Below are positions 52,083 through 58,992 of a DNA stretch of 64,000 bases, in pieces. A program made the translations under genes and the position numbers. Within the stretch, counting starts at the first letter, position 1; each line of letters opens with the position of its first letter. Below the pieces are notes generated by a model. It had not been told where the DNA came from and ran no database searches. It saw nothing but the letters and a program-made list of their open reading frames with translations. The DNA is from Fennellomyces sp. T-0311 (lineage: Eukaryota; Mucoromycota; Mucoromycetes; Mucorales; Lichtheimiaceae), in the NCBI GenBank assembly GCA_025266875.1, contig JALLLT010000034.1, forward strand, positions 310,001 to 374,000. The letters run 5' to 3'.

Positions 52083-52766
52083 ACAGCTGATATGCTTACT
52101 TTTCGGTGGTTGAGGATGACTATGTGTGCTTTTTTTTGAGTACGTACATACGTCGTTTGAGACAAACAGAAGTCGCTTTTATGACTGCTGAAAATTGCGG
52201 TATACGTGGGAAACTGCTGATGTTGAGAGTAAAGATGTCAAACTACTTGCAAAACAAAGGCATCCGAACAATGCAGGAGGTGAGAGCACATATTCCAAGC
52301 TTGAGCTTTTTTCTTATAAATGAAGCTCAAATTGTACCGATTGACTTTATAAGAATTACAATTGTTGCTGGATATCACTTCATGCTGTGTCTGCTAGATT
52401 ACGAGTGGATGTACTTGAATTTTAATAGCCTGGTGCTTCTGGTAGATCAAGCTTGGTACTTCATTATGTTATTGCGCATGTGGTTTAGTAATCTGACATG
52501 CGATGAGTTACATTTGCGTGATAATTTTGATATTTACATTCATATCAGTTCTTGCAGCACACATTGTCGTAGGTCATGCTAAGCCAGACCGTTCAGCGCC
52601 AAATTTCAATGTTATTTGCTTTTGGATACTGAATGGTAATTAATTTGAGCGAACATCGTTCAAGAGATGTGAAATTGCACTTATCAGGACAAACCCTGAA
52701 CAGAATCGAGAAATCAGACGTTCTATACTACTTTAAATCCACCGTCACGGGGGAGACAAAAAGCAC
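52083..52766. other. Region downstream of the Fanzor gene
   Basis: About 680 bp. It includes a plus-strand frame without an ATG (52106-52582) and no recognised domain. Directly beside the Fanzor stop, at 52740-52780, are two short palindromes (CCGTCACGG-like and CACCTAGCGCTGGTG), which could be part of the element end or of a guide-RNA-like structure. Confidence 0.35.
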
Positions 52767-55700
52767 CTAGCGCTGGTGTTCCGTCAATCGCTCCATGGAG
52801 GCAGCGAGTTGGAAGGTTTGGTCGTGGGAGCGGGAGAAGGGTGGGATGGGTAAATTGTTGTGAGATACAGCTTTCGAAAGGCCACTGACAGCGATGTTGA
52901 ATGATGCTGCTGCATCACGGTTGAAAGTATTCGCATGGTGGAGAGGACAGTCCGGATTCGTGCACCTGATGGCACCATTAGCTGCCTTGAGCTTTCCATC
53001 CACTCGGTACTTCTGCAGTTTTGTCGGTGCATGGCATTCAGGGCATGTCTTAGATGATCGATATTCATTGGTGACGATAACGATATCTTGCTTGCATGAC
53101 TCGAGAGCCTGTCTCAGTTTTGCGTTCGCGCCTCTAGCATGCTTCTTGATGCGACTGTTGACTGCACGATATGCGCCATAGAAAGCCAGTGTTGCTATCG
53201 ATTGCTGAACGCGCCAAGATGTTGCAAGCTTTCGATGCAGGATAGAGTGACGGATCTCCCTCGTCCTTGCCTCTTTATTCCTCCTGTTGCCGTCGTCCTT
53301 TTCCTTGTCGCGTTCGCGTCGATTTGTATGCTTTGCTTCGAATGTCGCAGCTTTTTTTATTGACGATGTATATTTTTTCGCTTTGAATGGACGTGTTGTC
53401 TGTTGCGGCGGTTGCTGCTCAGGTGGTGGTGGTGTGGTGTACCTTCGCACAACGCTCATCACGGCGTCAAAGGTGGTGGTAACCGCGGTTGCCGCGACAA
53501 CTATCCCTGGATCGATCCCAATGACACCCAGCGGTTTCTGGCTGTTGAAGCTGTCAATGATCGTCTTCTGGATACGCTTCTATAAACACAGTGATAAGCA
53601 TACATATAACGCGCCTTTGATCCAAGCGCTCTACCTGTTCTATTGTTTCTTGAGGCCGAACTGTTTTGTTCGATTTTAACGCTTGCATTCGAAACAGCTC
53701 GGCACGCAAATCCGCCAGCTACCTTTGCTTCAATGAGATGTCTTTTTCAAATTCCTGGACAGTTCTTCGCACCGCCCATAGCTTCGCGTAAACACCACGA
53801 TCCCAATACTTCTTCCCCATGTTCTTTTTCCCGTCCCGGAATGTACGACCTAGGTCTGCACGCTCGATCTCGTACTTATTGCACCTCTTGCGTACCGATG
53901 TGAGCTCGGCCTGTAGCTCCTTGACCTGTTTTTCCTTCTCCTCCAGAAGCTGTTGGTTGAGATTTTGGTCGATGTTAGCCCTTTTCAACCCAGATTCCGC
54001 TGCTGAAGGGTGCGGCCTTTTCTGCCCGGCTGCCTTGATCGCCTTCTTCTTTTTTCGCTTTCGAGCCTTCCTGGCCTTTCCTTTGCCAGCCATTCCCTTA
54101 CCAGCCTTGTTCTTTGCTGTGGAGGGTAGCACAACAGCCCTACCCTTCCCTTTGCGAACAGGAAGCACTTCCTCCACACTGGAATCAGAGGAGCTAGATT
54201 CTTCATTTTGATCGGCAGACAGGACGCTGCTTGCTTCTTTCTTTGCTTGGCTGGTATCGTTCGGGTCAGCGGACTTGCGACCACGACCAAGCACCCGGAC
54301 CTGATACTTGTTAACATAGGTCAAACGGTGTTTGAAGACAAGGTTCTTGGTTTTGAGAGCTTGTGTTATCTTCGGTAAGCAGAAAAAGGCACCGAAAACG
54401 TCATCGCGCCTCTCTGGCAGGCCCGCCTCTCGTTTGCTGGTGACTTTCCCCTTGGCGCTGGTAGATGGGATCGTGTAAGTACCGGAGAATAATGTGTAAA
54501 GCACATCTGCTCCAATATGGATGGAGTGGTCTTTGTAGTCGACCTCCGGGACGATCGCCCAGATATTCTGTTGTGGGACCACCAATTTAACGACAGCGTT
54601 TGTGATATAAGCCAGAGGGACGCATTTATGCACTGACAGAACATCCGCTTCGTCGTCATCGTCGTCTTCCACGCTATTGTCTTGATCTGGTTCTGGGTGG
54701 TAGTATGGTCGAACTGCGTTGGCGATTTCGGCAGCAGCCTGGCACTGCTTATCTGTTAGGTCGCTCCCCTTGTAGGCTGCATCGCGAATTGCTCTGGCAG
54801 ACACCTGCTTGGAGGTTGTGGACAGGACTCGTTTGATAATGGCTACCAGTGCTCGAACTTGACGGGTGGTAACTTCTTTTTCTTGGGCATCTACGGCAGA
54901 CTCTTCCACTTCTTCCTCGTCGGCGTCGTTGGTCTTTGTACTAATCGGACTGTCCTTGTCAAGCTTCTTGGGAAGAGTGCGATCCTGTTTGTGCTTTTCT
55001 TCTTTCTCGGCTTCCTCTTTGCTACTAAGAGCTTTTGATGAATGGGACAGCTTGTCAAGCTTTTAGAGTAACTCTGTTAGTGCGAAAAGTAAGCACACAA
55101 AAATTCTGTCGATTTACCTTCGCGACCCAGTTGTTTAGCTTTTCGAATAACATTTCGATCACAGTATCATCTCTTCCGCGAATAATCGAATTCTCAAGCT
55201 CTTTCCGGTGATAATCCGCCTTACTCTTAGCATGTGCTATGCTAATACGCCGATCCACAGGATTGCCGGTTTCTGTCTCCCCCTTTTTTCTCTTCTCAGC
55301 TGCAATCCGTGCGAGATAACGACGGACGCGATATGGAGCGAGCCTCAGCCTAATGAGAGCAGTTGTTAGGACTCGGAGATCCCTGTCATGGCGCTTCTGC
55401 GACCAGAGGTTGTGTGCAGCTGTCTTGAATTCCCGCAGAGCATTGTTCATGGCACCGTTGAAGGCAAAGTCATCCTGCTTGGTGACAACACCAGTATCCC
55501 CGATCACCTTGCGCGATTCATGAAAAACAAATGATTCCATCTTTTCGTTCACGCTTGAACCGACGCACCCTAAGCATAAAACATAACACGTTGATTGATG
55601 GAAACGGAAAGTGTACACTGCGATGACGTACCTGACAGTATGTTCGAGAAATGTTCGAACTGATACACGCGGGCATCTTCCAACTTGTCCAGATCTGGTG

Positions 55701-57073
55701 GTATTGGTGACACATGGACAGCCGTTTTCGCCTCTGGTCCGAAATCAAAACCAGGTACCAGAGCTTGGATATCGAAAATTGTGTCGTCGACAACAGTGCG
55801 GCACAGTCGGGCCATTCTTCCGCTGGCGATCATATCAGTCAAAGCTGATACCCCGTTCGAAAGCTGTGCCATACATCGACCGACGCGCAATTTCTCGTTC
55901 TCCAATCCGTTCAAGAACCCGTCGTAGGCGATTTCCTCTCGTAAAATAGACCGCAATGAAAACGTCATAGTTTCTGTGAAAATTGCTGTTTCGCGTATTG
56001 AAGTGTCTTTGTTCTTGACCGCTTGGCTACCTTCGTCATCAGTTTCTTGGTCATCACTGTTATTGGCTTCTTGATCACTGTCCTGATAACCCATGACTTC
56101 GTCCCACGTGCATGATTCCAAGAAACCCTGTACTTCCTCATGCAGCCGATACCCTTCATTTTTGAAGTATTGAAATCGGTCGTAATCTTTATAACCTTTT
56201 ATCCGGTCAGCGAACCAGTTAGGAGCCACGTCCATGGGATGCCGTTTTAGGATGGATGCTTGGATCTCGTCATAGATGCGAGGAACGTTTTTTCTTTTGT
56301 CGTGCTTGTTGTGCAGCTTTTCTAGCATCTTGACAGCTTTTTGCTTGCTTTCCGCTCCTTTAAATGCCTCTTCAATCTCTTGACGATGGAACCGCCTGAC
56401 CCCGGCCTCAAACTCGCTGATGATCTGGTCTCGGGTAATACCTGTCCGAGACATTATTACCTCTTCGTTGTCCACGTCATCCTCATCATGGCCTGTAATC
56501 GTGGCTGCAGTAGACGATGGTGGAGCTGGTGCGGGCGTTGGCTGACACTTTACCGGCTTCGGAGGCTTCAAAAGAAGTCGATTTGAGTATATCATTACTC
56601 TAAATGGTTAGTCAAAAGCCAACCTTGTACTCGGGCAAGTCGCAAAGTTGGAACCATTTGGTCTTCTCGCCAAGGTATGAGTCAGTATGCTGCAGCACAC
56701 TAACAGTTGTCTTGCCAATTGGATTGATCACCTGCGCATGCTTTCTGGTGGAAAAGTAGAAAACACGCAGATCCTTTTTATGAGCAATGGCTATGAGCAA
56801 CATCAACCCTTTTGCTTTAGTTGGTGGTGCGGTTCGCAAGAAAATGGTATGACCAGAGTCGCCGGAAAGCAGCCGTGTCAATGCCGTGGATTGGAGAATA
56901 TCCATGCCGCTTCTTTTAAGGGCCTTGGTTGTTTTGCGCAGGTTCTCGGCACCGGGAACAAAGTTATGCAGACCACTGAAGGCGTTCTCGAGCCGGTTGG
57001 CTGAGATGGGTGGTGCTTCGATCTGTACTTCTTCCGAATGACCAAAGATCTTCTGTACAAGCGTAGGATTCAT
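52767..57073 (-). pseudogene. Fanzor (eukaryotic TnpB-like RNA-guided nuclease), one in-frame stop
   Basis: Member of the TnpB/Fanzor family; studied members are RNA-guided DNA nucleases acting in the nucleus. Five exons on the minus strand, 57073-56624, 56565-55632, 55569-55118, 55059-53635 and 53579-52767 (introns 58, 62, 58 and 55 nt), join in one frame of 1357 codons. Seen: an extra N-terminal part of about 150 residues in exon 1; helical acidic regions; WED/REC-like KNLVFKHRLTYVNKYQVRVL; a K-rich stretch AGKGKARKARKRKKKKAIKA (about 940-960, likely NLS); a coiled coil; RuvC-I VIGIDPGI (Asp1110); AFYGAYRAVNSRIKKHARG; TNEYRSSKTCPEC (Glu1259, the shifted catalytic Glu seen in Fanzors); zinc-ribbon Cys1266/1269/1293/1298; RuvC-III NRDAAAS (Asp1309). 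An in-frame TAG at 53721-53719 (codon 1059) precedes the RuvC half. A 42-nt intron (GTCCAG..GTAG) could remove it but would be unusually short. Marked pseudogene with caution. Confidence 0.85.
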
Positions 57074-58992
57074 AGTTGGAAAGAATGTGGTACAGCATGA
57101 AACGCGAAACGCGAAAAAAAGAGAGTCGATGGAAGCACGCAACTGGGCGTGTATTTTATTTGGTACTTCCTTATTAAGTTAGGCTAACGTTGACATCCAA
57201 GCATTGTTACTTTCATTCGTAGTATCTATCATAATGGTCAACCCTATTCGCCATCGCTATTGTTTCAGTATGCGAACGAGGCACACGCTTCATGTATGGT
57301 ATGCACGGATCAACTGTTTCTGCACACGAAATGCTATCGGCAACCAATGATATGCATAGACGGTGCAACCCACCAGCTTCCGTTTAAGTAGAATGTCTCG
57401 CAGTAAAAAGCGTGACAGACACCCAGCCAGCCGTATCGACCAATCCCTAAAGGCTGTTTCAAACGCCGTTAGAACGCCTAAAAAGGGAGAACCTACAAGC
57501 ATCTTTCCGAAATAGTCTAATTCAAGTGCCACTTAAACTGATTCAGGAGACCCCTTAAAACTGATGATATGATGACTTTTGACGTAAATCATGCTAATAA
57601 GTCCTAGTAGACCCCAAGTAAACTTTAACAGATAAAAATAGGCGGCATGATCCGGAGAGGTTGCGTGAAAGAACTTGCCAAATATGTAAACTAGGAACAG
57701 GTCTCACTTTGTGTCCCTCTTTTAAATTTGATCCACTGGTAGATGCACGGGGTAAAAATAAAGAAATTTTGTGCACTGGTCAATGTGACTGAATTAAAAA
57801 AAAAGTAACAACTTTATGCTATCACCGCGCCTGGTAGTTCAGTATACTCCGTTATGAAGGATCAGCGGCGCTGATTAAAAAAATGCAAAGTAGTATGTTT
57901 ACGCACGCATAATACTGCCATTACCGATATGTTCGCATAATGTGAGAGAATTTTTTTTTTGGATTGCGTGAAAAAATCGTACGGTTACTACCGGGAACTG
58001 GTGGCCATAATCTCGGTACACAGACGAAATCCCGAGCTGCATATATGTGTTAGAAAAAGAAAGTTTCATACCCGGGGGGGGGCGGATCGATGAGGGTCGG
58101 TAACACTGGATCGTTTCACAGGACATGAACCTTTGCCAAAAAAAAATGCAGTTGTTCAAGAAGATTCATCTTGGGAAAAAAAAAGAGTCTTTGATAAAAT
58201 TCGCTGATTCTGATTTAAAATGTCCATTTTGAAACGTTTAATGCCCATTTTCGTATGCTTTGCGACACCTTTCAAAATTTTCCATTTTGGGAGTGGTCTT
58301 GATGCAAACATCCACAACATGCAGGGCTAGACTGATGGTGCAACTATAATGTTACCGTCGTTGTAGCACATGGGATCCAAGCTTATTTGTTACATTTATC
58401 ATTGGTCGACAAGAACAGCTGATTGCAAGAGCAATGGGAGGACAAGCGTGCCAACTTTTTTTACAAAACAGAAAAAAAAAATATTTTTTTTAAAACAGAA
58501 TCTCAAGACCGGCAAAATCTTACGAAATGGAAAAAGCACGATGTTTGCTTCCTCCAAACACAAAAAAGTGCGGAACTCGCGTAATCATTTTTTCAGACTA
58601 GATTTTTTAGGTTAGTTATAGATTTTATACCTTTTTTCCCACAATGGTGAAATGCATCTATTTCAATGCAAATGCGAATTCCTTAAATATCATTTATGGG
58701 ACTAACAAAAAAAAATGCCTTGCATGCATAGTTATTACATGCAGCAATTGGATTGCTCCGCAACCTGTTGAAAGTGAAGCAAAAAGACGAAAATGCCCGA
58801 ATTGAAAGGCAGCGCATCGTGCTTCTTGTGTAACTGTATAATCCACTAACCACTACAAAAGAGAACGCTGTCTGAGATGAGGTTGGGCGTTCAGTAACCG
58901 CCTTCCTCCCCTTTTTTTCTTCTCGTTCCTCCTTTACTGTTGGCTTTATCAAAAGGCAATCCCTATTATATTATTCCTTTTGTAACTTCATC
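57074..58992. other. Intergenic region between Fanzor and MFS genes
   Basis: About 1.9 kb with A/T homopolymers and a run of eight G near 58073-58080. No gene was recognised. A 7-bp-stem inverted repeat ATCAGCG/CGCTGAT lies near 57870. No terminal repeat matching the other side of the Fanzor gene was seen. A pyrimidine-rich tract before 58950 is likely part of the MFS promoter. Confidence 0.4.

Follow-up and report, generated by a model that had tools for sequence, protein, structure and literature searches.

The genome of the fungus Fennellomyces sp. T-0311 (Mucorales; assembly GCA_025266875.1) contains a large Fanzor gene on the minus strand of contig JALLLT010000034.1. We analyzed this gene in a stretch of 64,000 nucleotides (nt) (contig positions 310,001–374,000; the whole stretch is called the window below), in which it occupies positions 57073–52767. 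Comparison with the rest of the assembly indicates that the window gene is one copy of a multicopy transposable element with defined ends, a point that the preliminary description of the window sequence had missed. The explanation that we favor, and consider probable as a whole, is that the gene is a recently inactivated copy of a multicopy, non-autonomous Fanzor element that is mobilized in trans by a Helentron. The components of this explanation that can be read from the sequence are the element ends, the many copies, the private stop codon, the open frames of sister copies, the purifying selection on shared variants, and a 5′ end shared with RepHel elements.

Gene structure and identity of the encoded protein

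The window copy is a five-exon Fanzor1-like gene with 1357 joined codons and one internal stop. Its exons, all on the minus strand, are exon 1 (56624–57073), exon 2 (55632–56565), exon 3 (55118–55569), exon 4 (53635–55059), which holds the internal stop, and exon 5 (52767–53579), which contains the RuvC residues D1110, E1259, and D1309, the zinc ribbon, and the stop codon. The introns measure 58, 62, 58, and 55 nt in gene order and all four have GT..AG borders; the junction at the last of them (intron 4, 53580–53634, minus strand) is identical in the public protein model P0006, which is labeled Fennellomyces sp. T-0311. The preliminary description had read five exons in one frame of 1357 codons with a single TAG at 53719–53721, and rereading the minus strand gave the same result. 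Because the frame is also open in three other copies (L011, L014, and L015), it is not a product of chance. The join is further supported by a Circinella umbellata protein, P0008 (1415 amino acids), which shares 39% identity over 97% of the sister protein of L014 and aligns with the window protein in unbroken order across all five exons, at 37–51% identity per exon. This collinearity spans both sides of the TAG, and the conservation in P0008 of the residues after the stop bears out the earlier remark that both sides look like coding sequence. A search with the full-length sister protein, in which the 8000 best candidates were scored, found one relative. No convincing Pfam match was found within residues 1–700 of the window protein (exons 1 and 2 scanned) or in P0008.

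By its profile and motif matches, the window protein is a Fanzor1-type nuclease of 1357 amino acids. A profile search of exon 5, as proposed in the preliminary description, bore out the assignment in part: PF07282 (TNB) matched at E = 5e−5, with a score of 23.8 bits that is below the curated cut-off of 26.3 bits, and the NCBIfam matches were weak (guided_TnpB in one of seven rows, E = 0.009). These rows are those of an alignment, A1, of the window exon 5 and six relatives, in which five of the seven, including the window row, matched PF07282 at E ≤ 0.1 (best, 9.6e−7). When the A1 profile was searched against the PDB, the top three matches were SpuFz1 (7e−4), PpFz1 (6e−3), and GtFz1 (0.04), all solved Fanzor1 structures, and the fourth was unrelated (E = 0.24); the corresponding single-sequence search was weak, with SpuFz1 in second rank at E = 0.3. 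E1259 and D1309 align with chain residues 935 and 1000, whose spacing of 65 is also that of the catalytic E541 and D606 of SpuFz1 according to the residue list of PMC11423790. D1110 would correspond to SpuFz1 D383, to which it was matched by motif only. The Fanzor1 motif given in PMC3627910, D-X(125,275)-[TS][TS]XX-C4 zinc finger-X(5,50)-RD, is present in the window as D1110, S1262-S1263, C1266/C1269/C1293/C1298, and R1308-D1309. The catalytic D, E, and D were retained in all 18 copies read for them, in agreement with the earlier claim of a Fanzor with complete catalytic residues. An AlphaFold2 model of exon 5 built from the seven sequences had a mean predicted local distance difference test (pLDDT) score of 39.

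Copies, boundaries, and selection

With exon 5 as the query, the assembly yielded 99 matches, and twenty 10-kb loci were read (L009–L028, the window copy being L009). Homology among the copies stops at position 57479 on the 5′ side and at 52711 on the 3′ side, delimiting a Fanzor element of ~4.77 kb (52711–57479, minus strand). Aligned stretches were 92–98% identical to the window copy at 17 of the 19 other loci and 83–90% identical at the more diverged L027 and L028; several loci were truncated or internally deleted. In a comparison of 1.5-kb flanks at 15 loci (all but L022 and L025–L028), only L010 and L020 shared one, on the upstream side. A fully open frame with GT..AG at all four introns was found at 3 of the 20 loci (L011, L014, and L015), L017 had one stop elsewhere and no indel, and the remaining non-open loci carried frameshifts, deletions, truncations, or stops. 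No gene besides the Fanzor was recognized in the element. A serine recombinase, as expected in an IS607-type Fanzor2 element, was absent from the Pfam scans, which covered exons 1, 2, 5, and the part of exon 4 before the stop, together with P0008, and left exon 3 unscanned.

Nonsynonymous and synonymous variants (N/S) were counted in 18 copies against an expectation derived from the mutation spectrum of the variants of the same family, coding variants included; this spectrum-corrected count replaced an uncorrected one, and the more diverged L027 and L028 were left out here as well as in the count of catalytic residues. Among variants shared by at least two copies, N/S was 0.56 of the expectation (p = 7e−7), falling to 0.42 in exon 5 (p = 6e−4), and no stops were seen where 10.9 were expected. 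Among private variants, N/S was 0.82 of the expectation (p = 0.015) and 0.92 in exon 5 (p = 0.33), with 20 stops against 22.0 expected. The shared variants are therefore constrained and the private ones nearer to neutral, indicating that a functional frame was maintained in the source lineage and that individual copies decay once inserted, although part of the private changes may predate this decay.

Purifying selection on shared variants would also be seen if the Fanzor gene were a host gene that had merely been segmentally duplicated, and the long upstream flank common to L010 and L020 points the same way. This view is scarcely credible, however, given the sharp ends and the fact that no other pair among the 15 loci has a flank in common; the junctions contradict it. 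At L010 (C124) and L020 (C114), followed outward with L038/L040 and L039/L041, ~12 kb of upstream flank are 99.5–100% alike, with 96.2% in the outermost kilobase, up to the end of contig C124. Similarity in the bins within the element is 96.4–98.9%, and on the 3′ side the two flanks are different right from the element end. Composite transposition of two neighboring elements was rejected as the origin of this pair because the flank is more alike than the element. The shared flank points to element-mediated ectopic recombination or to an assembly effect.

Two internal deletions recur among the copies. The segment at window positions ~56526–56822 is missing in L010, L020, L024, and L026, which removes one whole intron and 246 coding nt (82 codons) in frame; that at ~55055–55416 is missing in L021 and L024, which removes one whole intron and 312 coding nt (104 codons), also in frame. 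L024 thus carries both. In L023, a stretch of exon 5 (window ~53346–53487) is inverted.

The internal stop codon

The TAG at codon 1059 (53719–53721, minus strand) lies in exon 4 and is the sole internal stop of the window copy; the codon is sense in all 19 other copies. As judged from this comparison, the TAG is a private nonsense change that reflects the ordinary decay of one transposon copy. The suggestion of a very young pseudogene made in the preliminary description is thereby supported, with three sister copies open, and we regard the window gene as a recently inactivated copy; a polymorphic allele at codon 1059 is possible. Since the stop precedes the RuvC core, the product of this copy could not cut DNA, and the copy could still be mobilized and could still make guide RNA.

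The coding-like sequence on both sides of the TAG would fit a stop that is read through, recoded, or spliced out to give a full-length protein, and both read-through and a short (42-nt) intron had been proposed. Read-through is at odds with the presence of a sense codon in all of the 19 other copies and with the conservation of the post-stop residues in Circinella. As for splicing, the GT that overlaps the TAG is private to the window copy, being absent from the 19 others. No frame-keeping AG occurs within 107 nt of it (only introns starting at that GT were tested), and a splice from this GT to the normal acceptor would take out a further 88 nt and put the codons out of frame. We therefore consider a full-length product from this copy very improbable.

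An assembly or sequencing error in an otherwise intact window copy deserves somewhat more weight. Apart from the TAG, the window copy is free of internal stops, and when it is taken as the reference for indels, none is found in three sister copies. Nevertheless, an error of this kind is quite unlikely: the window copy has 23 private changes of mixed kind, and since the frequency of private stops across the copies is close to the neutral expectation, a genuine nonsense change would be an ordinary event.

The 5′ end and a candidate RepHel partner

The 82-nt 5′ terminal region of the element (57406–57487, minus strand) recurs at 92–98% identity in L029, L030, and L031, which represent a second, clearly different Fanzor family, and shares 77.5% identity over 89 nt with L036 (genome-wide E = 4e−10). 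Scanning the genome for Helitron_like_N gave 44 matches, and at C120 (L036) and C172 (L037) this domain is preceded, at a distance of ~2 kb, by a copy of the 5′ end that has no Fanzor. L036 has, in addition to Helitron_like_N, a second open frame with PIF1 and a C-terminal Exo_endo_phos domain, a make-up that appears to be of the Helentron type; according to PMC4067079, the RepHel of Helentrons carries an endonuclease and that of Helitron2 does not.

The 5′ end of L036, a query independent of the Fanzor element, was found at 15 other places, and all 15 had a Fanzor match downstream on the same strand. With a query derived from the Fanzor element, 45 5′ ends were counted (three matches lacking the very 5′ end were left out), of which 39 had a Fanzor within 7 kb downstream, a figure inflated by the element's own family, 2 had a RepHel, and 4 had neither. 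As a control, a Fanzor was found within 7 kb upstream in 2 of the 45. One of the four ends with neither gene (C150:182902, L042) follows the second Fanzor family for 1.7 kb from the start of the element and is divergent beyond that point.

Terminal repeats and target sites

By eye, the 5′ terminal inverted repeat AGGCGTTCTA (57470–57479, minus strand) is the inverse of TAGAACGTCT at 52725–52716 in 9 of 10 positions. The 3′ terminal inverted repeat, GTATAGAACGTCT (52716–52728, minus strand), has the counterpart GTATAGAACGCCT in L036, where the two terminal repeats, AGGCGTTCTATAC and GTATAGAACGCCT, match at 13 of 13 positions. Also by eye, GTATAGAACGTCT at the 3′ end of the Fanzor element is directly followed by GATTT(TT), and L036 has TGTTTCGAGAAACA at this place. 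For L036, an 8-bp stem was predicted at the 5′ end.

The 5′ junction of the window copy is a run of five T (57480–57484, minus strand), preceded by CCC, which may be target motif or element edge. CTTTTT was present at each of the 21 different 5′ junctions read (15 in this family, 4 in the second Fanzor family, and 2 in RepHel elements), compared with a C before 50% of the T5 runs in the window; many of these junctions were found by a query beginning with TCCCTTTTT, which favors CTTTTT junctions. L020 represents the insertion already counted for L010 and was not included among the junctions, and L022, L025, L026, and L027 had no usable 5′ junction.

No duplication of constant length was seen at 16 loci, a count without L023, which has no standard 3′ end. 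At three of the 16 (L011, L013, and L014), the first element nucleotides are missing and 6–9 bp of the 3′ flank are repeated after T5, and none of the 240 cross pairings has more than 2 bp in common. Most copies have the identical 5′ end although their flanks are unrelated, and for this reason target duplication was dismissed as the only source of the variation among 5′ ends. In the Chlamydomonas Fanzor-Helitron2 elements, as reported by Bao and Jurka (PMC3627910), insertion occurs after TTTT without duplication when the 5′ end is exact, and shortened 5′ ends are accompanied by duplications of 7–19 bp after T-rich tetranucleotides.

The 3′ region

The 3′ untranslated region (3′ UTR; 52711–52766, minus strand) would be the place of an omega-RNA scaffold, and we infer that an omega-RNA may be made from the 3′ end of the element. 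Pairwise divergence in the 3′ UTR was 0.013, compared with 0.033–0.039 in the exons (14 copies, six of the 20 loci being left out). Intron 4 has a divergence as low as this (0.016), and 17 of 472 sixty-nt windows vary less. If the omega-RNA exists, the adjacent 3′ flank (52695–52710, minus strand) is the predicted guide region, because SpuFz1 has this arrangement (PMC10432273).

Mobilization of the element

In its ends and target, the element is Helentron-like, and it is probably mobilized in trans. As it contains no RepHel, it would be at most a non-autonomous derivative, and because it lacks the 3′ hairpin, has a weak 5′ hairpin, and does not have its ends joined among the longest repeats, it is not a full member of the Helentrons. 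In the mechanism that we propose, a Helentron-type RepHel acting in trans would recognize the terminal sequences and insert the element behind a CTTTTT tract. Together with an RNA that takes its guide from the 3′ flank, the Fanzor would cut unoccupied targets beside the T-tract and thereby assist in retaining or copying the element, a role already suggested for TnpB of IS200/IS605.

Several observations weigh against this explanation. On the side of the partner, the L036 RepHel is divided between open frames of 632 and 1147 codons, stops interrupt the Rep domain at C172 (L037), and a 5′ end was detected in just 39 of 72 merged Fanzor loci. At the 3′ side, the end of L036 matched nothing else in the genome at E ≤ 0.001 and is linked to that of the Fanzor element only by the 13-nt inverted repeat (12 of 13) and a T-run. 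As for the termini, the 9/10 inverted repeat of the Fanzor element is too short to stand out by itself, the 5′ hairpin is weak and differs from that of L036, and there is no hairpin between the 3′ repeat and the end, which is a defining feature of Helitron2 and Helentron; according to a figure legend in PMC5148889, a group in Fusarium likewise has no 3′ hairpin. The RNA fold of the 3′ region was no better than that of shuffled sequences (z = 0.51). Finally, P0008 has K at the position of the catalytic E (TDKYGTSKTCP), and that copy may be nuclease-dead. Our confidence in the full explanation was lowered by the inverted-repeat result and by the divided frame of the L036 RepHel, whose two parts may be separated by an intron or by a frameshift.

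The unique 3′ end of the RepHel element and the missing 3′ hairpin would also be accounted for if a different transposase, and not Helentron RepHel, moved the Fanzor elements and recombination had merely exchanged the 5′ end that the two kinds of element have in common. According to PMC3627910, the Fanzor1 elements of other Mucorales have ends that either are MuDR-like or are unclassified and accompanied by Crypton or Harbinger genes. However, none of the 25 longest of the 45 inverted-repeat pairs in the region joins the two element ends, the 16 loci are without a duplication of constant length, and the T-run target and asymmetric repeats fit Helitron2/Helentron. We therefore judge another transposase to be rather unlikely, and mobilization by RepHel is the basis of the following proposal.

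More tentatively, and with more doubt than confidence, we suggest that RepHel, a rolling-circle HUH transposase, and Fanzor, an RNA-guided nuclease, together could be a eukaryotic counterpart of TnpA-TnpB (IS200/IS605). CTTTTT would serve both as insertion site and as target-adjacent motif (TAM), the 3′-flank guide would direct recutting of empty sites, and several Fanzor families, among them short derivatives that lack the nuclease core, would have the 5′ end type in common and use both enzymes in trans. The model predicts that the adjacent motif is CTTTTT, that the guide is the 3′ flank, and that the ends are recognized by RepHel. With many Fanzor elements with defined ends, a candidate RepHel partner, and open-frame copies in one genome, the system makes a TnpA-TnpB-like model testable in a eukaryote and bears on the role of Fanzors in eukaryotic transposons.

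Comparison with known systems

Fanzor1 on Helitron2-type ends is known, and what is new here are the differences in the partner and at the 3′ end. The Chlamydomonas Fanzor1-Helitron2 elements CRe-1, CRe-2, and CRe-3, as described in PMC3627910, resemble the present element in having a multi-exon Fanzor1, in being non-autonomous, and in their RepHel-type 5′ end. They also insert after a T-run, have short duplications only with shortened 5′ ends, and have internal-deletion derivatives. In contrast, the candidate partner here is of the Helentron type, with a C-terminal endonuclease that the RepHel of Helitron2 lacks according to PMC4067079; furthermore, the Fanzor element has no hairpin between the 3′ repeat and the end, and its host belongs to the Mucorales. 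Helentrons and HINE, in the account of PMC4067079, share with our system subterminal inverted repeats, T-rich insertion sites with a variable number of T, and an endonuclease-bearing RepHel, which here belongs to the partner, whereas the Fanzor element carries a non-RepHel gene and has no 3′ stem-loop.

The Mucorales Fanzor1 elements MCi-2, MCi-4, MCi-5, ROr-4, and PBl-3 (PMC3627910) and PpFz1 of Parasitella (PMC11423790) agree with the present case in host order and in Fanzor1 type, but the ends of the five former are MuDR-like, or the elements are left unclassified, in the description of PMC3627910. In the parts of the non-subscription literature that were covered, Fanzors carried on Helentrons with an endonuclease are not reported for Mucorales. 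Spu-1 of Spizellomyces punctatus, which encodes SpuFz1 (PMC3627910 and PMC10432273), is likewise a Fanzor-only element, and the catalytic E and D and the zinc ribbon of the two proteins can be aligned. As described in these sources, Spu-1 differs in having terminal inverted repeats of 30–33 nt and one single open reading frame (633 amino acids), and omega-RNA and cleavage have been demonstrated for SpuFz1, whereas they are predicted for the element here.

Short derivatives of the second Fanzor family

L029 and L030 are ~2-kb derivatives of the second Fanzor family in which the 5′ region and the zinc-ribbon/3′ end are retained and ~3.7 kb present in L031 is missing. They resemble the ghost Spu-1 elements, short derivatives of Spu-1 without most of the gene as described in the sources cited above. 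Among the matches of the exon 5 search, 18, with 41–53% identity, start at exon 5 residues 169–174.

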